The notes under the pieces are model-generated. The model was given only the letters and a program-made list of their open reading frames with translations, searched no databases and was not told the DNA's origin. This document shows, in pieces, positions 30,098-45,156 of a DNA stretch of 64,000 nucleotides. This DNA comes from Radicibacter daui. Its GTDB lineage: Bacteria; Pseudomonadota; Alphaproteobacteria; Radicibacterales; Radicibacteraceae. A program made the translations under genes and the position numbers. The DNA lies in contig CP131056.1 of NCBI GenBank assembly GCA_030657355.1, positions 4,180,001 through 4,244,000 on the forward strand, given 5' to 3'. Each line of letters starts with the position of its first letter. Within the stretch, counting starts at the first letter, position 1.

Positions 30098-31543
30098 TCA
30101 GGCGAACTTGACCATCACATGGCGCACCACGGTGTAGTCCTCCAGCGCGTACTGGCTGAGGTCCTTGCCGTAACCGGACTGCTTGAAGCCGCCATGCGGC
30201 ATCTCATTGGCCAGCATGAAGTGGGTGTTAACCCAGGTGCAGCCATACTGAAGCCGCGCCGCCACCGCCATGGCGCGGGAGACATCCTGCGTCCACACCG
30301 ATGAGGCAAGGCCGTAGTCGCTGTCATTGGCCCAGGAGATGGCCTCTTCGGTGTCAGAAAAGCGGGTGACGGAGACAACAGGGCCAAACACCTCACGCCG
30401 CACGATCTCATCGCTCTGCAGCGCGCCCGCCACCACGGTCGGCTTGTAGAAAAAGCCATTGCCGTCGGCGACACCGCCGCCGGTGGTGATCTCGATATGG
30501 TTCAGCTCGCTTGCCCGTTCGACAAAGCTCGCCACCCGGTCGCGCTGGCGGCGGGAGATGAGCGGACCCATCTCGTTTTCCGCGTCATCCTCGCGGCCAT
30601 AGGCAATGCCGGAGACGGCGGAAGAAAGATCAGCCACCAGCTTTTCATAGAGCTTGTCGCCGACATAAAGCCGGCAGGCCGCCGTGCAGTCCTGCCCGGC
30701 ATTGTAATAACCGAAGGTGCGCACCCCCTCGACCACGGCATCAAGATCGGCGTCATCAAACACGATGACCGGCGCCTTGCCGCCCAGTTCCAGATGTGTG
30801 CGCTTGACCGACTGGGCCGCTGCAGCCAGCACTTTCTTGCCCGTCGCCACATCGCCCGTCAGCGACACCATGGAGACACCGCGATGGTTGATGAGCGTGT
30901 TACCGACACTGCCGCCGCGCCCGACGATGACGTTGAACACACCTTCCGGCAGGATATCGGCCGCGACTTTGGCGAGTTTCAGCGTGGTCAGCGGCGTCTG
31001 TTCGGACGGTTTCAGCACCACGCAGTTGCCCGCTGCAATCGCCGGCGCCACCTTCCAGGCCGCCATCATCAGCGGATAGTTCCACGGTGCGATAGAAGCG
31101 ACGACACCGATGGGATCGCGCCGGATCATCGAGGTATGGCCCGGCAGATATTCGCCCGCCGCCTGCCCCGGCAGCGTGCGCACGGCGCCGGCAAAGAAGC
31201 GGAACACATCCACTACCGCCGGGATCTCATCGCGCAGCACCGCCGGATAGGGCTTGCCGCAATTGAGCGCTTCCAGCCGGGCAAAATCCTCGGCCGCATC
31301 CTCGATGGCCTGGGCGAGGCGCAGCAGATAACCCGAGCGCTCCACCGGCGTGGTGCGCGACCAGGTAAGAAAGGCCTTGCCGGCGGCGGCCACGGCCTTG
31401 TCGATCTGCGCGGCGGAAGCCTCCGGCATATCCATGATCACGGCGCCGGTGCGCGGGGCGTAGAGGGTCTCCGCCTCTTCGCTGCCGGTTTCAAAGGCGC
31501 CACCGATCAGCATGCTGATGTCGCTTACGGCTGCTTTGCTCAT
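30098..31543 (-). CDS. patD: Gamma-aminobutyraldehyde dehydrogenase
   Basis: Oxidises 4-aminobutanal to 4-aminobutyrate with NAD, a step in putrescine breakdown. The 481-residue protein shows the aldehyde dehydrogenase fold: [19 protein letters not shown], catalytic Glu in LELGGKAP near residue 250, and catalytic Cys in [13 protein letters not shown] near residue 285. The latter and the [17 protein letters not shown] segment are very close to E. coli PatD (YdcW). It is last in a transporter operon with the E. coli ydcSTUV-patD order. Confidence 0.95.
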
Positions 31544-31580
31544 GATGGAAGGGCTCCCTGTTCTTATCGCGTCTGTCGGG

Positions 31581-32387
31581 TCATTTGCCGCTGCCGGCCG
31601 TTTCGGCCGTATCGCGGGTCAGGTAATAGGCGGCGAGGATGGGCAGCAGCGTCACCAAGATGACGAACACCGCCACCACATTGGTGACCGGCCGCTGACG
31701 CGGGCGGATCAGTTCCGTCAGCATCCAGATCGGCAGGGTTTCCTGCTGACCGGCGGTGAAGGTGGTGACGATCACCTCGTCAAAGGAAAGGGCGAAGGCC
31801 AGCATGCCGCCGGCCAGAAGCGCGGTGCCGAGCGTAGGCAGCAGCACATAGCGGAAGGTCTGGAACGCATCGGCGCCCAGATCCATCGACGCCTCGATGA
31901 GTGAGGGCGAGGTGCGGCGCAGGCGTGCCACGGCATTGTTGTAGACCACCACGATGCAGAAGGTGGCGTGGCCGAGCACGATGGTCAGCACCGAAAACGG
32001 AATGTCGGCAGCGCCAAAGGCCGTGCGCAGACTGATGCCGGTGACGATGCCAGGCAAGGCAATGGGCAGGATGATGAGCAGCGACAGCGTCTCCCGCCCG
32101 AAGAATTTCGCCCGCGCAAGGCCGCCCGCCGCCAGCGTGCCGAGCACCAGCGCAATGGCAGTGGAAATGGCGGCGATCTCGACGGAGAGCGTCAGCGCAT
32201 CCCAGATATCCTGACGCCCCCAGGCAACACCGAACCATTTGGTCGTGAGGCCCGGCAGCGGCCACTGGTAGCTCTTCTCCTCCGTAGAGAAGGCATAGGC
32301 GAGGATGAAGAGCAGCGGCAGATGCAGGAAGGCGATGCCTGCCCCTGCGGCAAGCTTGAGCGGCCAGCCGGCCTTGTCAGTGCGCAT
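31581..32387 (-). CDS. ydcV: Polyamine-type ABC transporter permease, second subunit
   Basis: A 268-residue inner-membrane permease of the PotC/YdcV family with six predicted helices. The EAA loop reads [20 protein letters not shown] near residues 165-184. It begins with an 11-bp overlap of the preceding permease gene, so translation is coupled. The gene ends 38 bp before patD. Together with the upstream genes it forms a putrescine/GABA-like uptake system; the exact substrate is not proven. Confidence 0.9.
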
Positions 32388-33336
32388 CGAAGGCCCCCAT
32401 GCGGCGGACGATGGCGAGATAGACCGCCATGATGACGATGGGCACCACCGAGAAGGCGGCTGCCAGCGGAATGTTGCCGGCCGTACCCTGCTGGATATAG
32501 ACGACCTGCCCGATAAAGAGCGTGGAAGGCCCCACGATCTGCGGCGCGATATAGTCGCCCAGCGTCAGCGAGAAAGTGAAGATCGACCCGGCGGCCACGC
32601 CCGGCATGGCGAGCGGCAGGATGACGGAACGCAGCGTGCGCCCCGGTGCAGCGCCGAGATCGGCGGAAGCTTCCAGCAGCGAGGCCGGCACCCGCTCCAG
32701 CGCCGCCTGCACCGGCAGGATCATGTAGGGCACCCAGAGATAGACGAAGACGATGAAGGTGCCGATATAGCTGACCGACAGCGACGGCCCGCCGATGCCA
32801 GGGATCGAGAGCAGCCAATTGATAAGGCCAGTGGTATGCGTGGCCTCGGCCGCCCAGGTGATGACGCCTTCCTTGGCGAGGATCAGCTTCCATGCATAGA
32901 CGCGCACCAGATAGCTGGACCATAGCGGCAGCATCACCAGCAGATAGAAGGCCGCCTTCATGCGCCCGTGGGCATACCGCGCAGCGTAATAGGCGATGGG
33001 AAAGGCGATGACGGCACTTGCCACCGTTACGCTCGCCGCCATGACCACGGTGCGCACGACCACATCGAGATTGGCCGGCCTCAACAGCTGGGCATAGGTG
33101 GAGAGCGTGAACTCGTGGACGACGAGGCCGGAGAACTCGTCGAGCGAGAAGAAGGACTGCGCCAGAAGCGTTGCCAATGCGCCCAGATAGACGGCACCGA
33201 GCCAGAACATCGGCGGCGCCAGCAGCACCGCCAGCACCAGCCAGCGCCGCCGCAGCACAAAGTCCGACAGACGCCGCAGCGGCCCGTCCGGCAAAGGCGG
33301 CAGATCGGCAGTGAGGGAGGAGAGCGGCCTTGCCAT
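32377..33336 (-). CDS. ydcU: Polyamine-type ABC transporter permease, first subunit
   Basis: A 319-residue permease of the PotB/YdcU family. Long N-terminal extension, six helices, and the EAA loop [20 protein letters not shown] near residues 225-244. The [20 protein letters not shown] segment near the end is typical of PotB-like proteins. Its start overlaps the ATPase stop by one base (TGATG). It pairs with the next permease to form the channel. Confidence 0.92.
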
Positions 33337-34358
33337 CAGGCCTGCTCCAGCCAGTGCAGCGCCGCCGGCTCAAAGGCAAGGATCGCCTGCGCGCCGGGAG
33401 CAACGCTGACAGCGCCGTGCGCCGCATCGCTCACGGCAATACGCCCGCCACCGGCAAGCTGGGTAACCACCCGGCGCACGGCACCTTGATAGAGCACATC
33501 CGCCACGGTAGCGCTGAGGCTGAGCCAGCCTTCCGGTACCTCGACCACCGACGCACAGATCCTGATGCGCTCGGGCCGGAGGCTTGCCGCGCCCCTGGCG
33601 CTTACGCCGAGGGTGGAGAGCAGGGCAGCCTCGATCACGTTGGAAGAGCCGACAAAATCGGCAACGAAGCGCGTGCGCGGCTGCTCGTAGATTTCCGTCG
33701 GCGTTCCCACCTGCACGATGCGCCCGTCATTGAAGACGGCGACGCGGTCGGCCATGGAAAGCGCCTCGCCCTGGTCATGCGTCACAAAGACGAAGGTCAG
33801 GCCCAGCTGCCGGTGCAGCGTGCGCAGCTCGACCTGCATTTCCTCGCGCAGCTTGAGATCGAGCGCACCCAGCGGTTCATCCAGCAGCACCACCTTCGGC
33901 GCGTTGATCAGCGCACGGGCAAGGGCAACGCGCTGGCGCTGGCCGCCGGAAAGCTGCGCCGGCTTGCGGTCGCCGAATCCGGAAAGCTTGACGAGGGAGA
34001 GCATCTCCTCGGCCTTCTCCCGCCGGGCGCGTTTGCCAACGCCCCGCACCATAAGGCCGTAGGCCACATTGTCGGCGACGCTCATGTGCGGAAAAAGCGC
34101 ATAGTCCTGAAAGACGGTGTTCACCGCCCGCCGATAGGGCGGCACGCCCTCCACCGCCTCGCCAAAGATGCGGATCGACCCGTCGGTCGGCTGGTCGAAA
34201 CCGGCGATAAGACGCAGACAGGTGGTCTTGCCCGAACCCGACGGGCCCAGCATGGCGAAAAACTCGCCCGGTGCGATTTCCAGATCGACGCCATCGACAG
34301 CACGGATGGTTCCGAAATGGCGTGACACGCCCGCAAAGCTGACGGCCGGTTCGGTCAT
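33336..34358 (-). CDS. ydcT: Polyamine-type ABC transporter ATP-binding protein
   Basis: A 340-residue ATPase with Walker A GPSGSGKTT near residue 40, Q loop NTVFQDYALFPHM near residue 85, signature LSGGQRQRVALARAL near residue 136 and Walker B VVLLDEPLGALD. A C-terminal TOBE-like regulatory domain follows (residues about 240-340), as in PotA. It lies downstream of the binding-protein gene past a 16-bp hairpin. Confidence 0.95.
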   Translation of the reverse strand: MTEPAVSFAGVSRHFGTIRAVDGVDLEIAPGEFFAMLGPSGSGKTTCLRLIAGFDQPTDGSIRIFGEAVEGVPPYRRAVNTVFQDYALFPHMSVADNVAYGLMVRGVGKRARREKAEEMLSLVKLSGFGDRKPAQLSGGQRQRVALARALINAPKVVLLDEPLGALDLKLREEMQVELRTLHRQLGLTFVFVTHDQGEALSMADRVAVFNDGRIVQVGTPTEIYEQPRTRFVADFVGSSNVIEAALLSTLGVSARGAASLRPERIRICASVVEVPEGWLSLSATVADVLYQGAVRRVVTQLAGGGRIAVSDAAHGAVSVAPGAQAILAFEPAALHWLEQA

Positions 34359-34396
34359 GCTTGTTCCTGTTACTTTGTCATGTAAGGCAAAGAGAG

Positions 34397-34439
34397 GGAT
34401 GAGGGCCGGCTGCCGGGAAGGGACAGCCGGCCCTCATCC
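34397..34439 (-). terminator. Intra-operon hairpin after the ydcS-like gene
   Basis: A perfect 16-bp stem (GGATGAGGGCCGGCTG with CAGCCGGCCCTCATCC, 11-nt loop) lies between the binding-protein gene and the ATPase gene. The minus strand continues CTCTCTTT. It probably limits read-through so that binding protein is made in excess. Confidence 0.75.
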
Positions 34440-34454
34440 TTTGGGGCGCTGGCG

Positions 34455-35627
34455 TCAGCGCCCGCCGAGGATGGCGATGTAATCGCTCACCCAGCGGCTA
34501 TATCCGACGCAGGTGCCCTGGCTTGCGCAGGAGGCAACCGGTGTGCGCCAGAAATGGATGCGGTCGAAATCGCCGGCACCATTGGTGGCGCAGCCCTCGT
34601 CGCCCAGCAGTTCGTTGCCCTTGCAGGCCGCCGGCACCGCCGGCACGGAGCCGAACCAGGCGGCAAGGTCACCCTGCAGCTTGGGCTCAAGCGAATGCTC
34701 CATCCACAGATAGGCGCAATTCGGATGCGGCGCGCTCACATGCATCATCGTGGTATCGGCCCAGCCCGTTGCCCCTTCGGAGGGGATGGTGCTGGCAACC
34801 GGCTTGCTTTCGCTCTTCAGCAGGTTGACCTGGAACGGCCAGGAGGAAGAGGCCACGACGCCTTCATTGGTGAAGTCATCCACCTGCACCATGGCGTCGT
34901 GCCAGTAGCGCTGGAGAATGTCGTGCTGGCCGCGCAGCAGGTCGAGCGCGGCAGCATATTGCTGCTCGTTCAGCTCATAGGGGTCCTTGATGCCGAGCTC
35001 GGGATTATGCGCCATCAGATAGAGCGCGGCGTCGGCAATGTAGATCGGGCCGTCAAAGGCCTGCACCCGTCCCTTGTTGGGCTTGCCATCGGGCAAATCC
35101 ATCGCCTTGAACACCACATCCCAGCTCGTGGGCGCGGTCTTGAAGATGTCGGTATTGTACATGAGGACGTTGGAGCCCCACTGGTAGGGCACGCCGTAAT
35201 GAACGCCATCCACCGTGTGCCAGGGCGCATTCTTGAGGCGCTCGTCCACCGTGGACCAGGACGGGATGAGAGCCGTGTTGATCGGCTGGACACGCTTGCC
35301 GGCGATGATGCGCAATGAAGCATCGCCCGACGCCGTCACCAGATCGAAACCGCCCTGGTTCATCAGCGTGACCATCTCATCGGAGGTGCCGGCGGTTTTC
35401 ACCTGCACCTTGCAGCCGGTTTCCTTTTCAAAACCGGTGACCCAGTCATAGGCCGCATCGGTTTCGCCGCGCTCGATATAGCCGGCCCAGGCCACGATAT
35501 CGACTTCGCCCTCACCGGGTCCGATCGAGGTCATCATGCCGGCGGCATGGGCGGCGGTAGTGGAAGATAGAGCCAGCGCAAGGCCAGCGAGCGCGGCGGT
35601 TGCCGCGATCCGGGTAGTCGTCCGCAT
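34455..35627 (-). CDS. ydcS: Polyamine-type ABC transporter substrate-binding protein
   Basis: A 390-residue periplasmic protein of the PotD/YdcS family with a signal peptide (ALAGLALALSSTTAAHA). Landmarks are VDIVAWAGYIERGETDAAYD, ELTGC-like FEKETGCKVQVKTAGTSDEM and the C-terminal FWRTPVASCASQGTCVGYSRW, which has a Cys pair also seen in YdcS proteins. It opens the operon, and a hairpin follows. Substrate most likely putrescine or a related amine given patD at the operon end. Confidence 0.92.
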   Translation of the reverse strand: MRTTTRIAATAALAGLALALSSTTAAHAAGMMTSIGPGEGEVDIVAWAGYIERGETDAAYDWVTGFEKETGCKVQVKTAGTSDEMVTLMNQGGFDLVTASGDASLRIIAGKRVQPINTALIPSWSTVDERLKNAPWHTVDGVHYGVPYQWGSNVLMYNTDIFKTAPTSWDVVFKAMDLPDGKPNKGRVQAFDGPIYIADAALYLMAHNPELGIKDPYELNEQQYAAALDLLRGQHDILQRYWHDAMVQVDDFTNEGVVASSSWPFQVNLLKSESKPVASTIPSEGATGWADTTMMHVSAPHPNCAYLWMEHSLEPKLQGDLAAWFGSVPAVPAACKGNELLGDEGCATNGAGDFDRIHFWRTPVASCASQGTCVGYSRWVSDYIAILGGR

Positions 35628-35796
35628 GAATCTCTCCCTGTTATGAGATTTCCGGTCGGAACCATATGAAGGAAGGACACGCGCGGGGATCAGCCGTGCC
35701 GGGTCATTGCCTGGCGCTTGTTTTCAAGCCGTAACCTTGCGGGCCGCTTCTGATCCTAGAATGAAGGGCTTCTGCCATCATTCGCCAGACGGAAAT

Positions 35797-36732
35797 TCAG
35801 AATGAAGATATCGGTTTTTCCGATACCTTTCCGCGCTCGCCCCGCTGCGGCTTGCCGATCTCGACAAAATCCTGGGCGATAGCGGAGAGCTTCGCCCCCT
35901 TGCGCCACACGATCCCCACCTTGACGCGCGGTAGCGGCTCCGAGGCCGGGCGCGCGTCGATACGATCACCTTCCAGCGACCAGGGGCGGTAGACGAGGGT
36001 GGGCAGGATGGTAATGCCGGCGCCCGTCGCCACCAGGCTGCGGACCGCCTCCACCGAGCGGGTGCGAAAGGCCGTACGGGGGCGAAAGCCGTGTTCGGTC
36101 CAGAAGGCCCGCGTCGTCTCCTCGATCTCGTCGAGATAGAGCACGATGTGCGGCTCGCGCGCCGCCTCCGCCAGCGCCACTTCCGGCAGGCGGGCAAGGC
36201 GGTGGCCGTGCGGCAGCCACACCTGATAGGCCTCCTCGCCGATCAGCTCGACCTGAAGCGCCGAGTCCACCTCGCCATCCGGCACCACCATCACGGCAAC
36301 ATCGAGCTCGCCGTTGATGAGCAGGTGCTGCAAATAGTCCCGGCTGTCTTCTACTGCCGAAACAGTAACGAGGGGGTTGGCGCGGCGATAGCGCGCCAGC
36401 AGGTCGGAGAAGACATACCCCGCGACCAGCGAGGTGACGCCGACATGAAGCTCCCCGCTTTGCGAGGGGCCTTCCTCCGCCAGCGCCTGCCTTGCGTCCG
36501 CCACGGTCTCCAGAATGCGGTTGGCGTGGCGCAGGAAGAGGCGCCCCTTGTGGCTGAGGCTCATGCCCCGGCCATGCCGCTCCACCAGCGCAAAGCCAAG
36601 ATCCGCCTCCAGTTCCTTTACGGCCTCGGTCACGGTGGACTGGGAGATGGAAAGCGCCTGCGCCGCCCCGGAAATGGAGCCGGCATCGGCAACGGCGATG
36701 AAGTACTGGAGCTGTCTGAGTTTGAATGCCAT
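35797..36732 (-). CDS. LysR-family regulator upstream of the ydc-like operon
   Basis: A 311-residue regulator with helix-turn-helix SISGAAQALSISQSTVTEAV near residues 18-37 and GMSLSHKGRLFL after it. It lies in the same direction as the ydcS-like gene, 169 bp upstream, and may control it, although E. coli uses a different regulator (YdcR, GntR/MocR type). The ATG at 36732 has a weak ribosome site; an upstream TTG at 36780 is possible. The effector is unknown. Confidence 0.88.
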   Translation of the reverse strand: MAFKLRQLQYFIAVADAGSISGAAQALSISQSTVTEAVKELEADLGFALVERHGRGMSLSHKGRLFLRHANRILETVADARQALAEEGPSQSGELHVGVTSLVAGYVFSDLLARYRRANPLVTVSAVEDSRDYLQHLLINGELDVAVMVVPDGEVDSALQVELIGEEAYQVWLPHGHRLARLPEVALAEAAREPHIVLYLDEIEETTRAFWTEHGFRPRTAFRTRSVEAVRSLVATGAGITILPTLVYRPWSLEGDRIDARPASEPLPRVKVGIVWRKGAKLSAIAQDFVEIGKPQRGERGKVSEKPISSF

Positions 36733-36820
36733 GAGGCGGCAAAATAGCAGTTTGCGTCGGGCTTGGAAGCGTCGCGACAACCAATACGCTAAAAGATGTA
36801 ATTATCAGCCGACGAAGTAT

Positions 36821-36838: not shown

Positions 36839-36991
36839 GAAAATGCGTAAATCTCTAAAATCGATCTGCATAGCAAACGGTAAATAAATGCATAACAATT
36901 TGTTCCTGTTATAAACTATGTCCGGCACGCACTTGCCTGGCACCCGCTGACCGGAAGTCCCCGGATCACTGGATGCCCTTTGCTCTCCATC

Positions 36992-39085
36992 ATGAAAGCA
37001 GTGATCCAGATGTTCCGCTCTTCCGTTCTCCGCCTCCTTGTAACGTTACAGGGGGTCATGCTCGCCGGCCTTATCGTTGCAGTCGGCTTCATTGCGCTTT
37101 CCTCGTGGAACCGCATGCTGCTCGCCTCCGACACGCTGACCGCCGCCAAGGCAGACCAGGCCCTTTTCCAGCTGGCCGTGGGGCTGCGCAATCATTCCGG
37201 CCCGATGCAGACTCATGCGATTTCGGATGACGATCCGCATAGCTTCATCGATCCCGAGATGGAGAAGGTGAAGACGGAGTACGAAACCGCCCTCAAGATC
37301 ATGGCCGGTACCAAGGCCATGCCCGCGCGGGAAAAAATGGTCGAGGTAACCCAGGCCAAATGGGCCGACATGCAGTCCAAGCAGAAGCTGCTCGACGACC
37401 AGCTGGCCCTGCCCAAGGCCCAGCGCAGCGCGGCCGCCTTTGCCCCGTGGCAGAACGCCCTGCGCGCCATTTCCAGCCAGATCAGCGACAGCACCGTCGG
37501 TCTCAGCAACACGCTGCGCATGATGGACCCCTACGCCGCCGAGTTCGTGCAGATCCGCCGCCTCGCCTGGCAGGTGCGTGATCGCTTCGGCGCCCAGTGC
37601 TCGACGCTGCGTCCCTACATTGCCGCCAGCAAGCCGCTGGGAGAGGGCGCCGCCGAATGGAACGGTCAGGTCGCCGTCTACAAGGCCGCGCTTGCCAGCA
37701 TGGATGAGTTCCTGAAGCGCGACGGCGTCGATCCGGAAATCGCGTCAGGCTTCCAGGCCGCCCGTACGGCTACGGCCGACGCACAGAAGCAGATGGATGC
37801 CTGGGTTGCCGGCTTCGACAACAGCGGCAAGCCGGCAGTCGAGGCCACCCAGTTCACCGCCGTCTGCAACAGCCCCTTCGACAGCATCGTCAACATTGCC
37901 TACATGGCGCTCGACAAGGCCATCGCAGTTGCAGCGAATGCCCGCCACAAGGCGCTGGTCATCGCCATCAGCAGCTCGGTTGCCCTCGTCGCCGCCATCG
38001 CCCTCGGCATCGTCATGCTGGTATCGCTGCGTCGCCGCTTCTCGATCCCGATCTCGAAGCTGATGCAGGCTGTCTCCCTCCTCTCCAAGCATCAGTACGA
38101 CACGCCGCTGGAGCAGGCAGCCAATCCGGACGAACTCGGCCATCTGAGCGAAGCGCTGGAAGCAATGCGTGTCAGCGCTCTCGACGCCCAGCGCCTGTCG
38201 CGCGAATCGGCCGACCGCCAGGCCCGTGAAGCCGAGCGGGGCCGCCGCCTGCAGGAGATGTGCGGCAAGTTCGAAAGCTCGGTTCGCAGTGTGCTCGGCG
38301 CTTTCGGCGCCACCACGGAAGGCCTGCGGGGCACCGCTTCGCAGATGGGCTCGCTCGCCAGCGGCTCCAGCGCCCAGGCCGATGCCGCCTCGCGCAGCGC
38401 AGATCGTGTCGGCAGCAACGTGCAGACGGTTGCCGCGGCAACGGAGGAGCTTTCTGCCTCCATTGGCGAGATCAGCCGCCGTGTTACCACCAGCGCCACC
38501 GGCGCGAAGAATGCAGTGGACGAGGTTGAGCGCACCACCCGCACCTTCGACGGCCTTGTCGCCTCGGCCCAGAAGATCGGCGATGTGGTGGAGCTTATCC
38601 GTGGCATTGCCGAGCAGACCAACCTGCTGGCGCTGAACGCCACCATCGAGGCCGCCCGTGCCGGCGAAGCCGGCAAGGGCTTTGCCGTGGTGGCGCAGGA
38701 GGTCAAGAACCTCGCCGGCCACACTGCCCGCGCCACGCAGGAAATCTCCGATCAGGTCTCGGAGATCCAGTCCAGCACCAGCTCGGCCCTCAGTGCCATC
38801 CAGACCGTCTCCCGCTCGATCACCAAGATCAGTGAGGACAGCTCGGCCATCGCCGCGGCGGTGGAAGAGCAGGGTGCGGCGACCGGCGAAATCTCCAACG
38901 GTATCCAGCAGACCGCCCAGGGCACCAGCGAAGTGACGACCGCCATCGCTTCCGTCGCCGATGCCAGCCGCCAGACCGGCGAGGCGGCAACCGCCGTCAA
39001 CAGCGCGGTCGAGGAGATGGTGCGCGAGCAGCAGAACCTGGAGCAGGCCGTCGGCGGTTTCCTGGCCGATATCCAGGCGGCCTGA
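36992..39085 (+). CDS. Methyl-accepting chemotaxis protein, first tandem copy
   Basis: A receptor of about 697 residues. One membrane helix near residues 15-40 ([18 protein letters not shown]) and a second near residues 325-350 ([19 protein letters not shown]) flank a periplasmic helical sensor domain of nearly 300 residues. A HAMP domain follows and then the signalling domain with the conserved hairpin tip [20 protein letters not shown] around residues 535-555. The C-terminus lacks a CheR-binding pentapeptide. The ATG at 36992 has no strong ribosome site; a TTG lies four codons upstream. The next gene is a paralogue. Confidence 0.93.
38191..38371 (+). repeat. Near-identical segment shared by the two chemoreceptor genes
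   Basis: Positions 38191-38371 and 40529-40709 match at all but one position by eye (C at 38245 against A at 40583). They encode the end of HAMP and the start of the signalling domain. High similarity continues to the gene ends, while the sensor domains differ more. This suggests recent duplication or gene conversion. Confidence 0.85.
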
Positions 39086-39105
39086 CCCGCCCTTCCCGTC
39101 AGTTA

Positions 39106-39140
39106 AAAAAGCGCGGCCTGAGCTTCAGGCCGCGCTTTTT
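39106..39140 (+). terminator. Terminator after the first chemoreceptor
   Basis: GCGCGGCCTGA pairs with TCAGGCCGCGC (11 bp, loop GCT), extended by A and T runs; TTTTT follows. The two receptors are therefore probably separate transcripts. Confidence 0.93.
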
Positions 39141-39164
39141 CTTTGGCCGACAGGGTTCCGCGAC

Positions 39165-39182
39165 TTACTGCAAATTTTATTA
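39165..39182 (+). promoter_or_regulatory. Element shared upstream of both chemoreceptor genes (copy 2)
   Basis: TTACTGCAAATTTTATTA, one base different from the copy at 36821-36838. It lies directly after the first receptor's terminator, 166 bp before the second receptor start. Confidence 0.5.
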
Positions 39183-39347
39183 CCCAGCCCGGAAACCTAT
39201 AACCTTGGTTGCGGCAATTAACTCGCACAATCGCCCAAAGATTGGGCCTTCCCATTGAAATAACTGGATATTCACCGCCGGTAGCTGCTGGCCGACAAGC
39301 CGGGCCGTCGGATGCTCCGCCTCTCCGGCAGAAAGCGCAAATCCCCG

Positions 39348-41423
39348 ATGTTTCACTCTTCCGTGCTTCGCCTGCTTGCGACCTTGCAGGGCATCATGCT
39401 CGCCGGTCTCATCATCGCCGTCGGCTTCATCGCAGCCTCCTCCTGGGACAGCATGCTGCGCGCCTCCGATACGCTGGAAGCCGCCAACGCCGACCGTGCG
39501 CTGTTCGAGCTGGCAGTCAATCTGCGCGCCCATTCCGGCCCGATGCTGACCCATGTGATTTCGGATGACGATCCCAAGGCCTTCACCGATCCCGAAATGG
39601 CGAAGATGACGGGGGAGTATCAGACGGCTCTCAAGATCATGGCCGAGACCGACGCCATGCCCGAGAACAAGAAGATGGCCGCCGCGACCAAGGGCAAATG
39701 GGATGAAATGCTGGCCAGCCAGACGCTGCTCGATCAGCAGATGGCCCTGCCCCGCGGTGAGCGCCGTCCGGCGGCCATTGCGCCCTGGCAGGATGCACTG
39801 CGCGCCGTCTCAACCCAGATCAGCGAAAGCACCATCGGTCTCAGCAACGCCCTGCGCATGATGAATCCATCGGCCGCCGAGTTCGTGCAGGTCCGCCGCC
39901 TGGCCTGGCAGGTCCGCGACCGGCTGGGGGCCCAGTGCTCGGCCCTGCGACCCTTCATCGCCACCAGCAGGCCGATGGGCGATGCCGCGGCGGCCTGGAC
40001 AGGTATCGTCGCCGTATACAAGGCCGCCTTCGTCAATCTGGACGAGTTTTTACAGCGCCCCGGCGTCGATCCCGAACTGCTCGCCACCGCCAGGGCCGCC
40101 CGCACGGCCACTTTCGATGCCCAGAAGCAGATGGATGCGTGGGTTGCCGGCTTCGACAACAGCGGCAAACCGGCCGCCGATACTGCCACCTTCACCGCTG
40201 TGTGCAACGGCCCCTTCGACAGTGTTGTCGCGGTGGCCTACATGGCGCTCGACAAGGCGATCGATGTGGCGGCGCACGCCCGCAACAAGGCACTGACCAT
40301 TGCCCTCATCAGCTCCGCCGCCCTGGTGGTTACCCTCGGCCTTGGCCTTGTCGCGATGCTGGCGCTACGCCGGCGCTTCTCCCGGCCGATCTCCAGCCTC
40401 ATGCAGGCCGTCGCCCGACTGTCAAAGCAGCAATACGACCAGCCGCTCGACAAGGCGACCAACCCCGATGAGCTGGGCCAGTTGAACAAGGCGCTTGAGA
40501 GCATGCGTGTCAGTGCTCTTGAAGCCCGGCGCCTGTCGCGCGAATCGGCCGACCGCCAGGCCCGTGAAGCCGAGCGGGGCCGACGCCTGCAGGAGATGTG
40601 CGGCAAGTTCGAAAGCTCGGTTCGCAGTGTGCTCGGCGCTTTCGGCGCCACCACGGAAGGCCTGCGGGGCACCGCTTCGCAGATGGGCTCGCTCGCCAGC
40701 GGCTCCAGCACCCAGGCCGAGGCGGCGACCCGCAGCGCGGCCCGTGTCGGCAACAATGTGCAGACGGTTGCCGCGGCAACGGAGGAGCTTTCCACCTCTA
40801 TCGGCGAGATCAGCAGTCGCGTCGCAACAAGCGCTACTGGCGCGAAGAATGCGGTGGACGAGGTTGAGCGCACCACCCGCACCTTCGACGGTCTGGTTAC
40901 CTCCGCCCAGAAGATCGGCGACGTGGTGGAGCTCATCCGCGGCATTGCCGAGCAGACCAACCTGCTGGCGCTGAATGCCACCATCGAGGCCGCCCGTGCC
41001 GGTGAGGCCGGCAAGGGCTTTGCCGTGGTGGCGCAGGAGGTCAAGAACCTTGCCGGCCACACTGCCCGCGCCACGCAGGAAATCTCCGATCAGGTCTCGG
41101 AGATCCAGTCCAGCACCAACTCCGCCCTCAGCGCCATCCAGACCGTCTCCCGCTCGATCGCCAAGATCAGCGAGGACAGCTCGGCCATTGCCGCGGCGGT
41201 GGAAGAGCAGGGTGCGGCGACTGGCGAAATCTCCAATGGCATCCAGCAGACCGCCCAGGGTGCCAGCGAAGTGACGACCGCCATCAGCTCGGTCGCCGAT
41301 GCCAGCCGCCAGACCGGCGAGGCGGCAACCGCCGTCAACAGCGCGGTCGAGGAGATGGTGCGCGAGCAGCAGAACCTGGAGCAGGCCGTCGGCGGTTTTC
41401 TTGCTGACATTCAGGCCGCCTGA
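39348..41423 (+). CDS. Methyl-accepting chemotaxis protein, second tandem copy
   Basis: A receptor of about 691 residues with the same plan as the first: membrane helix near residues 10-35, a large helical periplasmic domain, a second helix near residues 318-343 ([20 protein letters not shown]), HAMP and signalling domain with the [20 protein letters not shown] tip. The sensor domains keep blocks such as [17 protein letters not shown] but differ widely elsewhere, which suggests different or tuned ligands. The start at 39348 was chosen because [10 protein letters not shown] aligns with the first copy. Confidence 0.93.
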
Positions 41424-41444
41424 TCCGCCCGGAATTCACCGGTT

Positions 41445-41479
41445 AAAAAGCACGCTCCGGCTTCCGGAGCGTGCTTTTT
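41445..41479 (+). terminator. Terminator after the second chemoreceptor
   Basis: GCACGCTCCGG pairs with CCGGAGCGTGC (11 bp, loop CTT), preceded by AAAAA and followed by TTTTT. Confidence 0.93.
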
Positions 41480-41579
41480 GTTCTGCGCTTGATAAAAAGC
41501 TCGCCCAGCGTGCAGGCGCGTAATCATAATGGGGCAAGATTGATTTGTTGCCGCGCCCGAAAGCCCGCCTGCCCCGCCG

Positions 41580-43397
41580 ATGGCCAAAAAAACCAGTTTC
41601 GAACTTTATGTGCTCGACGGGCGCCAGTGGCGCTTCGAGAAAGCTGCCGATGGCAGCGGCCGGGCTCAGCTGACAGAGCTTGCGCGCTCGCTTGACGGCG
41701 GCGGCAAGACCGTTGTGCTGCTCAAGGAAGTGCTCGACGCCAGTGGCGTGAGCCAGGAATCCGTTGTCTTCAAGAGCAAGGCGGCAACCGGACAGCTCCC
41801 GGGCTTTGGCCAGCGCAGTGGCGCGGCCGTCAGTTCCCCCCGCCCCGGCCCCGCCGAACGCGGCTTCACCCCGCCACTCTCGCCCGCTGCGCAGGCAGAA
41901 GCCGAAGCGCAGATGGAAGCAGCGCAGGAGGCCGCCCAGGCCGAACGCCGTTCCGCCAAGGCAGCGGAAGTGGAAGAGGGGCTGGTGCGCGTTGCCCTGA
42001 TGGGTGTGCTTGCCGCCGTCATTGCGCTTGCCATTGCCGCCCCGGTGGGCGCCGGCGTCTATTTCGCCCTCGGCTGGTCAGCCTCGCACCTGCACTATCT
42101 GCCACCGGGTGGCCCTACCCCCTGGGTCTATGGCACCTTCATCGTCGTAGCGCTCGCCGTCTTCATCCGCGTGGCACGGCGGCTGACGGAGCGTAATGTC
42201 AAGCTCACCACCGCCGCTGAAGCCGTTCCCGCCACAGCGATGCCAACGGAGCAGACCCCGCCGGAAAAACCACGCTCCCGCCGCCGCAAGAAGGCCGAAC
42301 CGGTACCCGAGGCCTTCGACGCCGACCTGCTGGCCGAGCTTAGCGCGCCGACGCGCGAGCGGGTGCCCGAGATGGCGGCCGAAGCACCGCCCCCTGCCAC
42401 GGCAAGAAGCCGCCCCATGCCGGCGCCAATGGCCTCCGCACAAGTCGAGCCGACAGCGCCGCCGGTGCCGGCCCAGGCTGCCCCGCCAGCACTGAGCCCG
42501 GCGGCGCTGCGCGCCGAACATGACCTCATCCAGTTCATCGGCACCTCACTGCGCCAGGCCCGCAATCAGGTCCGCAAGATCGACCGCATGACGCGCTTTG
42601 GCCTCATGCTTTATTTCGGCGCCGGCGGCGCGGCGGCCTGCGAACATCACGATGCCCGGCCGACAGAGCGGGCTGACATCCTTGGCCGACATCTCGCCAA
42701 GTTCGGCTTCAGCCCGGAAAAGGCCCAGCACTTTGCCGGCAACATGGAAGAGTACATGCGCGACGAGCGCAATGCGGAGATGGGCAGGGCGGGCACGGAT
42801 GCCATGAATGCCTATCTCGCCGGCAGCACTGCCGCCGCCGCCGCCGCCATCCTGCCGGCGCTCTCCTTCTGGGGAGAGCCGGCCACCAAACGCCAGGCGA
42901 GCGCACCGGTCACCATCCTTTTCACCGATATCGTCGGCTCGACGGAACTGACGCAGCGGCTTGGCGACCAGTCGGCCCAGTCACTCATCCATCTGCACAA
43001 CGCCATCGCGCGCGGCGCCCTGCAGCTCTATGCCGGCAATGAGGTTAAACACACCGGCGACGGGTTGATGGCCACGTTCGACAAACCGGAAACCGCCGTG
43101 CGCGCCGCGCTTGCCATGCAGGCGCAGTTTGCCGGTGAGCGCCAGCGGTCGACCGGAGCCACCTTGCATGTGCGTATCGGCATCCATACCGGTATCGCCA
43201 TCCGCGAGGAGAACGACCTTTTCGGCAGCCCGGTTCAGCTGACCCGCCGCCTCGTCGATGCCGCCCCGGCAGACGGCATCATGGTTTCCGCCGCCGTGAG
43301 GCGGGAAGCGAGCGGTATGGACGCCCGTTTCGCCCCGGCCGGCACCAAGCAGCTCAAGGGCTTCGTCGAGCCGGTCGAGACCTTTACCGTTTCGTGA
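41580..43397 (+). CDS. Membrane-bound class III adenylate/guanylate cyclase
   Basis: A 605-residue protein. Residues 1-70 are a small soluble N-terminal domain I do not recognise; a charged Ala/Glu-rich stretch follows; two membrane helices lie near residues 142-165 and 185-200; then a Pro/Ala-rich linker, a helical region (about 310-430) and a C-terminal catalytic domain from about residue 440. The cyclase core shows the first metal Asp in LFTDIVGSTELTQRL, the second in KHTGDGLMATF, and IGIHTGIAIREENDLFGSPV. This should make cAMP or cGMP at the inner membrane. The input signal is unknown. Confidence 0.88.
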   Translation: MAKKTSFELYVLDGRQWRFEKAADGSGRAQLTELARSLDGGGKTVVLLKEVLDASGVSQESVVFKSKAATGQLPGFGQRSGAAVSSPRPGPAERGFTPPLSPAAQAEAEAQMEAAQEAAQAERRSAKAAEVEEGLVRVALMGVLAAVIALAIAAPVGAGVYFALGWSASHLHYLPPGGPTPWVYGTFIVVALAVFIRVARRLTERNVKLTTAAEAVPATAMPTEQTPPEKPRSRRRKKAEPVPEAFDADLLAELSAPTRERVPEMAAEAPPPATARSRPMPAPMASAQVEPTAPPVPAQAAPPALSPAALRAEHDLIQFIGTSLRQARNQVRKIDRMTRFGLMLYFGAGGAAACEHHDARPTERADILGRHLAKFGFSPEKAQHFAGNMEEYMRDERNAEMGRAGTDAMNAYLAGSTAAAAAAILPALSFWGEPATKRQASAPVTILFTDIVGSTELTQRLGDQSAQSLIHLHNAIARGALQLYAGNEVKHTGDGLMATFDKPETAVRAALAMQAQFAGERQRSTGATLHVRIGIHTGIAIREENDLFGSPVQLTRRLVDAAPADGIMVSAAVRREASGMDARFAPAGTKQLKGFVEPVETFTVS

Positions 43398-43423: not shown

Positions 43424-44314
43424 TTATTGCAGGGTCGCCCGGCTGCGTTCCAGCCCGCCCCGAACCATCGCCTCGCAATCGGCGGCAAGGCGCTTGCGCC
43501 CGCCTTCATAGCCATTGGCCTCGAGCGAGGGGTGGAAGATGATCCGCACCGTCGCGCCCGGCAGGCGGAAGGCCCGCAGCAGATGCGGAAAGAAATCCAT
43601 GTCCGCATACCAGCCATAGAGCCCGGTCAACTGCTCCACGATCGGCCGGCCATCGGCAAGGCGCTCATAGACGACGCTGACGGGCTGCACCAGAAGACTG
43701 CCGTCGCGCCCTACCGCTTCGGCAAGGGCAAACAGGCTGGATTTGAAGGGCAGCACGCCGGTACCGTCGCTGGAAGTTCCCTCAGGGAAAACCACCAGCC
43801 GTTCGCCAGCCTTGATGTGGCTGCCAAGCAGCTCGGTCTGCTCCCGTGCCGCCGCCGGCCGCCGGTCGATGAAGACGGTACGGGCAATCCTGGCCATCCA
43901 GCCGAAGACGGGCCAGCCTTCCACTTCCGATTTCGCAACGAAGACCAGCGGTGTCACCGTCTCCATCGCCAGAATATCGAAATAGGAAATATGGTTGGAG
44001 ACGATGAGCGTCGGCCGCCTTGCCTCCGGCACCCCTTCGGTCACCACGTGCACGCCGAGCAGCCACAGCACGATGCGGCAATAACGCTGGGTCCACAGAT
44101 CGATGCCGCGCTTGCGTCGCTTTTCGGCAAGGAGCCCGCAGACGATCAGCACCGGTGACATCAGGAGAAAGAAGGCAAGACGCGGCACACCGCGCCACAG
44201 GCTGCCATTGGGCAGCCCGCTTTGTTCAGCCGGCGAGGCCTCCCTGCTGCCCGCAACTGGGGCAGGATCGGAAAGCGTGCTTTGCTGCGGGTTGCTATCG
44301 GTAGAGATGGTCAA
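43424..44314 (-). CDS. olsA: Lyso-ornithine lipid / lysophospholipid O-acyltransferase (PlsC type)
   Basis: A 296-residue membrane acyltransferase with the catalytic NHxxxxD motif as SNHISYFDILAM (His108, Asp113) and the FPEGTSSDGT block at 177-186. One hydrophobic segment lies near residues 45-62. PlsC proteins acylate lysophosphatidate; OlsA members add the second acyl chain to lyso-ornithine lipid. The gene directly follows olsB with 20 bp between them, which favours the OlsA role. Whether it also acts on lysophosphatidate is open. Confidence 0.8.
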   Translation of the reverse strand: MTISTDSNPQQSTLSDPAPVAGSREASPAEQSGLPNGSLWRGVPRLAFFLLMSPVLIVCGLLAEKRRKRGIDLWTQRYCRIVLWLLGVHVVTEGVPEARRPTLIVSNHISYFDILAMETVTPLVFVAKSEVEGWPVFGWMARIARTVFIDRRPAAAREQTELLGSHIKAGERLVVFPEGTSSDGTGVLPFKSSLFALAEAVGRDGSLLVQPVSVVYERLADGRPIVEQLTGLYGWYADMDFFPHLLRAFRLPGATVRIIFHPSLEANGYEGGRKRLAADCEAMVRGGLERSRATLQ

Positions 44315-44334
44315 GGTCCGGGAGGCTTCGGGGC

Positions 44335-45156
44335 TCAGGACACCAGGGCCGGCTCACCGGCAACCTGGGCGTTGAAGCGGGGAGCCTCGCCGCGATAGTG
44401 ACGATAATATTTGTCGGTCACCTGCATGGTCTCCACCAGGATGCAGACATCCGTGGTGTTGAACTGCGGGTCGATGACGGCACCGTCACCCACATATCCG
44501 CTGAGGCGCAGATATCCCTTGAGAAGCGGCGGCAGTTGGCGCAGCGCGAGCGCCTCGTCCACCTTCTCGGCCGGCAGCAAAGCCATGTCCACATAGCGCT
44601 CCTTGAGGGCGCGCGGACGCCAGCTGGCCGGAGCCATGTGACGATGGTGAAGGTAGGAGAGCCCCTGCATCATCTGCATCGGGTCAGTGCCGGCGAAGCT
44701 GGCGCAACCGAACATCAGCTCCACCTGATGGCAGGCGACATATTCGGCAATGCCGCGCCACAAAAGCTGCATCACGAAGCGGGTGCGGTAATCGATATCC
44801 ACGCAGGAGCGGCCGAGCTCCATGATCTCGCCGGGGAAGCTGGAGAGCGCCCGAAGGTCATACTCATCGGCACTGTAGAAGCCGAAGTTTCGCTGGGCTA
44901 CCGAGCGACGCAGGAAGCGGTAGGTGCCAACCACGCACGGGGCGCCGTGGCTGCTGCGGTCACGGTCAACCACCAGCAGGTGGTCGCACACCGGGTCGAA
45001 CTTGTCGAAATCGCGCTCAAGCGAGCGGGTTTCCGCGCTCGCATTGGCCTGCATCTCTTCGTAGAAAACCTTGTAACGCAGGGCCTGCGCGGCATCGAGG
45101 TCCGCACGGGTTTCGGCCAGACGCACTTCCAGCGAGTTTACGACAATCGGCTGCAC
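44335..45156 (-). CDS. olsB: Ornithine N-acyltransferase
   Basis: A 273-residue protein of the OlsB family (GNAT fold), which links a 3-hydroxyacyl chain from acyl carrier protein to ornithine to give lyso-ornithine lipid. Characteristic segments are LRYKVFYEEMQANAS, DHLLVVDRD, GEIMELGRSCVDIDYRTR and FGCASFAGTDP. Ornithine lipid is a phosphorus-free membrane lipid made under phosphate stress in many alphaproteobacteria. olsA follows in an operon; a Pho-box-like site lies 144 bp upstream. Confidence 0.9.
   Translation of the reverse strand: MQPIVVNSLEVRLAETRADLDAAQALRYKVFYEEMQANASAETRSLERDFDKFDPVCDHLLVVDRDRSSHGAPCVVGTYRFLRRSVAQRNFGFYSADEYDLRALSSFPGEIMELGRSCVDIDYRTRFVMQLLWRGIAEYVACHQVELMFGCASFAGTDPMQMMQGLSYLHHRHMAPASWRPRALKERYVDMALLPAEKVDEALALRQLPPLLKGYLRLSGYVGDGAVIDPQFNTTDVCILVETMQVTDKYYRHYRGEAPRFNAQVAGEPALVS

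Follow-up and report, generated by a model that had tools for sequence, protein, structure and literature searches.

In the 64,000-nucleotide window analysed here (positions 4,180,001 to 4,244,000 of contig CP131056.1 of Radicibacter daui), two neighbouring chemoreceptor genes have clearly diverged in their sensor halves, and their signalling halves are a mosaic of tracts differing in age, the middle of which is as old as the sensors. It is highly probable that the genes are tandem duplicates that have undergone patchy, repeated gene conversion limited to the half after the HAMP domain. The copies lie head to tail and align without gaps at an offset of 2338. Judged by domain content, both encode transmembrane methyl-accepting chemotaxis proteins (MCPs), with HAMP (PF00672) and MCPsignal (PF00015) matches above the curated cut-off. 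The listed open reading frame of copy 1 starts at 36980, 10 codons 5' of the ATG, and homology begins at about the ATG. The parts of the pair are the following, in window coordinates:

37010..39085, + strand: chemoreceptor copy 1, ATG start, 691 amino acids
39348..41423, + strand: chemoreceptor copy 2, ATG start, 691 amino acids
37010..38029, + strand: sensor part of copy 1, presumably with both membrane helices
39348..40367, + strand: sensor part of copy 2
38030..38173, + strand: HAMP domain of copy 1 (Pfam match), ending about 18 bp 5' of the near-identical block
38191..38371, + strand: near-identical block in copy 1, presumably the latest tract to be converted, with one synonymous change among 48 sites
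40529..40709, + strand: near-identical block in copy 2
38372..38600, + strand: stretch of copy 1 that presumably escaped conversion or was converted long ago, dS 0.54 (equivalent in copy 2: 40710-40938)
38601..39060, + strand: hub to near the C-terminus in copy 1, with presumed older or repeated conversion (equivalent in copy 2: 40939-41398)

Synonymous and non-synonymous divergence (dS and dN) were counted codon by codon as synonymous and non-synonymous changes. A preliminary description of this stretch had reported a 181-bp segment with a single difference between the genes and far more diverged sensors, and both observations hold: the segments 38191-38371 and 40529-40709 consist of exact runs of 54 and 126 bases around a sole mismatch at 38245, whereas the sensor halves share 77-78% of bases and 69% of residues. 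In the sensor half including HAMP dS amounted to 0.69-0.70, with 1.27 for the HAMP stretch (38030-38190), as compared to 0.02 in the near-identical block, 0.54 in the following 38372-38600 and 0.20 between the hub and the end, where the last 107 bases (38954-39060) are the same in both copies. The synonymous changes per sites were 132/291 for the sensor, 1/48 for the block, 23/60 for the middle and 21/120 for hub to end. Fisher tests separated sensor from block (p = 1.6e-10), block from middle (3e-6) and middle from hub to end (3e-3), with p = 0.39 for sensor against middle. The earlier statement that similarity stays high to the gene ends was thus incorrect, as divergence returns to sensor level at 38372-38600 before falling to 0.20. 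The three signalling blocks differ mutually, a pattern that neither one selective regime nor a single event produces. A single change point was located at 38183 with a log-likelihood ratio of 20.1, as compared to a maximum of 10.1 across 500 codon permutations; even dS along the genes, named beforehand as the sign of simple recent duplication, was not seen. The longest run of codons identical at silent positions comprised 42 codons and was matched by 1 of 5000 shuffles over the whole gene. GC content at third codon positions (GC3) and codon adaptation of the blocks were alike in both copies and ordinary. A local drop of dS with a sharp border is a mark of gene conversion between tandem paralogues, and here the drop is present, patchy and sharply bordered.

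The position of the block bears on the suggestion in the preliminary description that recent conversion of the signalling half keeps the CheA/CheW interface uniform. The contact with CheA and CheW is located at the hub. The Pfam match to HAMP extends to about 38173 and that to MCPsignal starts at about 38486; the near-identical block (residues 394-454) falls in the interval, about 146 to 86 residues N-terminal of the hub motif, on the helix after HAMP and not at the interface. Moreover, the hub resembles that of unrelated receptors of the source genome, e.g., with 88% over 149 bp, so a uniform interface needs no conversion. The proposed rationale is therefore not supported; of the proposed event, conversion is retained on account of the uneven dS, but not conversion of the half as one unit, since the half is a mosaic.

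Following this, we propose that a membrane chemoreceptor gene was duplicated in tandem long ago, and that homologous recombination between the two copies would since have overwritten short stretches of one with the sequence of the other more than once. A recent tract of about 181 bp would directly follow HAMP, one or more older tracts would lie between hub and C-terminus, and the stretch separating them would be unconverted. Sensor and HAMP carry no such tracts, either because the copies may be too diverged there to recombine or because selection may act against exchanges of this sort; each copy would keep its own sensor, and the signalling half would evolve partly in concert. Recombination as the mechanism, like direction, time and any benefit of the exchange, is what we infer from the divergence pattern. 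A third donor copy in the genome was ruled out: among the strongest matches listed, the others cover at most about 415 bases at 71-88%, and the exchange would therefore have occurred between copies 1 and 2. Other receptors of the source genome align to copy 1 only from about 38390 onward, and the near-identity of the block is thus peculiar to this pair. No close enough orthologue of the pair was found in 58 genomes including its own, 386 genomes of the class, plasmids and two scans of contig collections. The order is represented among the searched genomes by the source genome (G000) only, and the nearest sensor relatives displayed 33-38% identity (386 class genomes); plasmid matches came from 2 records, at 39% and 31%.

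A survey of adjacent receptor pairs revealed that such profiles recur. It covered, in loci retrieved for this purpose, same-strand neighbours no more than 3 kb apart, namely 24 pairs including the window pair plus 12 more, n = 36 among the pairs listed, the pairs in genome G050 being at least those counted. Pairs other than the window pair were picked by adjacency before dS was known; homology searches with similar receptors had yielded loci L080, L127 and L128, and genomes G014 and G028 were relisted after their pairs were known. In 9 of the 36 pairs the change point exceeded every one of 200 permutations, with the lower divergence on the signalling side each time; signalling dS was at most 0.4 of sensor dS in five pairs, the window pair included. 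The other 27 showed no significant change point and were mostly saturated, and saturated pairs cannot show conversion. The pair at L104, outside the survey due to its gap of more than 3 kb, was computed as well and found saturated, and Escherichia coli tar/tap, tried as a yardstick, was saturated and uninformative. Dispersed paralogues of G324 (L078/L079) displayed even dS near saturation and no homogenisation.

Among the homogenised pairs, the independent tandem pair of G014 (L080) showed dS of 0.76 in the sensor, 0.07 in the block, 0.02 in the next stretch and 0.48 from hub to end; G143 carries a single copy at the corresponding site, flanked by the same genes, one of them groEL-like by eye. 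In the G028 pair (L102, HBM sensor match PF16591) the sensors are 35% identical with a signalling dS of 0.06, in the G168 pair (L122, 4HB sensor, PF12729) dS was 2.13 for the sensor and 0.15 for HAMP plus signalling half, and in the G156 pair (L151_846/2822) the sensors are 38% identical with dS of 0.72 for the sensor and 0.17 for the signalling half. The homogenised pairs differ in tract extent. The identical stretch starts just after HAMP in the window pair and in G014 (-146 and -143 residues from the hub, respectively), and near the HAMP start, at -190 residues, in both G028 and G168. These two border positions, each seen twice across differing sensor types, are suggestive of module junctions, four cases being few. 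In the draft genome G440, both receptor copies, at L142 (contig C108) and L143 (contig C85), stop at a contig end in an identical 126-base stretch after HAMP; this assembly break fits a homogenised pair, and draft genomes probably under-count such pairs.

Trees with approximately unbiased (AU) tests of grouping by copy against grouping by genome were computed where a congener orthologue exists, which is the case for analogous pairs and not for the window pair. G168 gave the clearest reversal: its sensor tree rejected grouping by genome (AU 1.3e-8), and its tree of HAMP plus signalling half rejected grouping by copy (AU 1.2e-3). Furthermore, copy 1 of G168 compared with its G435 orthologue (L141) had dS of 0.20 in the sensor and 0.42 in the signalling half (Fisher p = 0.0013), which suggests transfer from copy 2 to copy 1. 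The same reversal was seen weakly in G014 on nucleotides (AU 0.028 for the sensor and 0.023 for the signalling half). For G156, grouping of the sensor by genome was rejected (3e-5), and the signalling half only leans by genome (0.167). In G028 the signalling halves cluster by genome (AU 0.021 on nucleotides, 0.046 on amino acids). A first G028 sensor tree, which paired the two copies and rejected grouping by copy (AU 0.017), was discarded as its partition included converted HAMP, and G028 was left out of the cases with sensors grouping by copy.

Several observations weigh against conversion as the explanation. The run of 42 codons was matched by 161 of 5000 shuffles inside the signalling half alone and is there only moderately rare. 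The G014 protein trees were not significant (p = 0.061 and 0.39), and the G028 sensor tree after the cut was moved splits neither way (AU 0.56 and 0.44 on nucleotides). For the four genes of L119/L152, from G247 and G156 of one genus, the signalling half rejected grouping by genome in favour of grouping by copy (AU 7e-5), and only a 70-codon patch leans the other way, without significance (0.26). Lastly, cross-species orthologues can display the same contrast, with dS of 0.37 in the sensor and 0.08 in the signalling half for L086/L090 and of 0.94 and 0.23 for L118_1423/L151_6668, and the contrast alone is therefore no proof of exchange within a genome. As a separate observation, the receptor orthologues L085, L086 and L090 (G156, G247 and G033, of one genus) are mosaic, with L086/L090 at a dS of 0.08 in the signalling half but 0.37 in the sensor and L085/L090 at 0.28 and 0.25; the sequences suggest exchange of signalling halves between lineages.

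Such exchange between lineages, as seems to have occurred in L086/L090, lends some plausibility to sensor replacement, in which the copies would have stayed near-identical until a diverged sensor plus HAMP from a sister lineage entered one of them through recombination within the conserved signalling half, the signalling half being merely young. The same sharp border would be expected. A single import leaves the levels of 0.02, 0.54 and 0.20 unexplained, however, as 38372-38600 is as diverged as the sensor; GC3 of the two sensors is alike (0.83 and 0.82), and in the analogous G168 pair copy 1 has its native sensor, with the signalling half as the departing part. We regard replacement as improbable. 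Simple duplication without exchange, the signalling half being held by strong purifying selection and the sensor changing fast, would be in line with the low dN of the signalling half (0.021 vs 0.20 in the sensor half) and is the account given for Pseudomonas aeruginosa PctA/PctB/PctC in the accessible text of PMC6974571. Nevertheless, selection on the protein does not lower dS about 30-fold in one block of 60 codons and spare the next 76 codons. Orthologues of an analogous receptor, L080_1 (the G014 receptor, from the same class) and L097 (congener G143), likewise showed dS of 0.60 in the sensor, 0.61 in the block, 0.76 in the next stretch and 0.56 from hub to end, or 0.62 over the signalling side overall; this even dS indicates that the region is not intrinsically frozen. 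We regard duplication without exchange as very unlikely. Equally hard to credit is a freezing of the third positions of 38191-38371 by an overlapping signal (RNA, antisense gene or codon-pair effect): although the block is GC-rich (0.72) and spanned by mechanical antisense open reading frames, it has no Rfam match and ordinary codon adaptation (0.79 and 0.76 in the two copies), the corresponding site varies freely between the L080_1/L097 orthologues and tract extent changes from one homogenised pair to another.

With regard to the sensor, a sensor-only AlphaFold model of copy 1 (residues 30-317, predicted local distance difference test (pLDDT) 80) was used, the full-length model with pLDDT 60 being set aside. 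Over its whole extent the model matched NasR (PDB 4akk), with Z 20.4 and 3.5 A over 260 residues at 10% identity, the next near-whole-domain structural match being 3iee (Z 12.5), and the Foldseek match had an E value of 0.16 and a probability of 1.00. The sensor is thus predicted to adopt a two-bundle helical NIT-like fold as in NasR, the domain of 4akk being named NIT. No Pfam NIT match was obtained for either sensor at E<=10, a search whose HMMER filters discard weak hits. NasR uses its NIT domain to sense nitrate and nitrite, and at a guess from the fold nitrate or nitrite might be the ligand here.

Downstream of each copy lies a hairpin with a U-run, both at the same place and of the same plan relative to the gene, with differing stem sequences:

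39103..39141, + strand: strong hairpin and U-run 3' of copy 1, z-score -4.8, absent from the consensus scan listing
41443..41480, + strand: strong hairpin and U-run 3' of copy 2, z-score -7.7, absent from the consensus scan listing

The hairpin 3' of copy 1 is a putative intrinsic terminator, and because each copy has a matching one the duplicated unit seems to include the terminator; 5' of the ATGs no alignment was found between the copies at offset 2338. The source genome (5.06 Mb, two contigs) has 43 MCPsignal matches, and an MCP signalling fragment with an in-frame TGA at G000:C1:2432722-2433072 is likely a receptor pseudogene. Directly 3' of copy 2, 41580-43397 (+) encodes a 605-amino-acid protein with a C-terminal class III adenylate/guanylate cyclase domain (PF00211). 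At 43424-45156 (-), a PlsC-type acyltransferase (PF01553) adjoins a GNAT protein (PF13444); this looks like a pair for ornithine-lipid synthesis, presumably OlsA/OlsB. Upstream of the receptors, 30098-36780 (-) comprises genes for an aldehyde dehydrogenase, two ABC permeases, a TOBE-domain ATPase, a solute-binding protein and a LysR regulator, probably an uptake operon, presumably for a polyamine-type substrate.

Receptors of this kind are already known. According to the accessible text of the respective articles, Campylobacter jejuni Tlp2, Tlp3 and Tlp4 have diverged in their sensors (~30% in the sensory region) but carry signalling domains that are identical or nearly so (PMC9769880), their common C-terminal DNA is the proposed site of homologous recombination inverting ~92 kb (PMC6433261), and a recent domain swap was proposed for CcrG (Tlp11) (PMC5080441); 'gene conversion' in PMC9769880 means turning into a pseudogene. 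These paralogues resemble the window pair in near-identical signalling domains and diverged sensors. In contrast, they flank a large chromosomal segment and are not tandem, have dCache sensors and, as far as the accessible text goes, come with no analysis of synonymous sites or conversion tracts. Similarly, P. aeruginosa PctA, PctB and PctC are neighbouring paralogues with a conserved signalling domain (>96% identical) and a diverged sensor (<56%) (PMC6974571), which differ from the window pair by their dCache sensors; the accessible text explains them by purifying selection and uses 'gene conversion' and 'recombination' 0 times. The closest parallels are the G168 and G014 tandem pairs with the same dS profile, which differ in that a congener orthologue exists and, for G168, in the sensor family. 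In the open-access literature, subscription papers lying outside the search, nothing was found that shows gene conversion of chemoreceptor signalling halves via synonymous sites. Useful additions to this known kind are the evidence from synonymous sites and the recurrence in further tandem pairs.

Chemoreceptors share one array into which their signalling halves have to fit, and the uniformity of these halves among paralogues is commonly put down to selection alone. The synonymous sites indicate that in some tandem pairs exchange of DNA has a share in homogenising them. For such pairs whole-gene identity makes receptor duplications seem too young, paralogues can group by genome in signalling-domain trees and draft assemblies may break, as in the G440 copies. 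Tentatively, and with somewhat more doubt than confidence, conversion on one side of a module junction, at the HAMP start or just after it, might be a recurrent route by which neighbouring receptors keep or exchange signalling halves as their sensors diverge. If so, the near-identity of paralogue signalling domains usually attributed to purifying selection would partly reflect concerted evolution, with the junction indicating the place at which conversion is tolerated.

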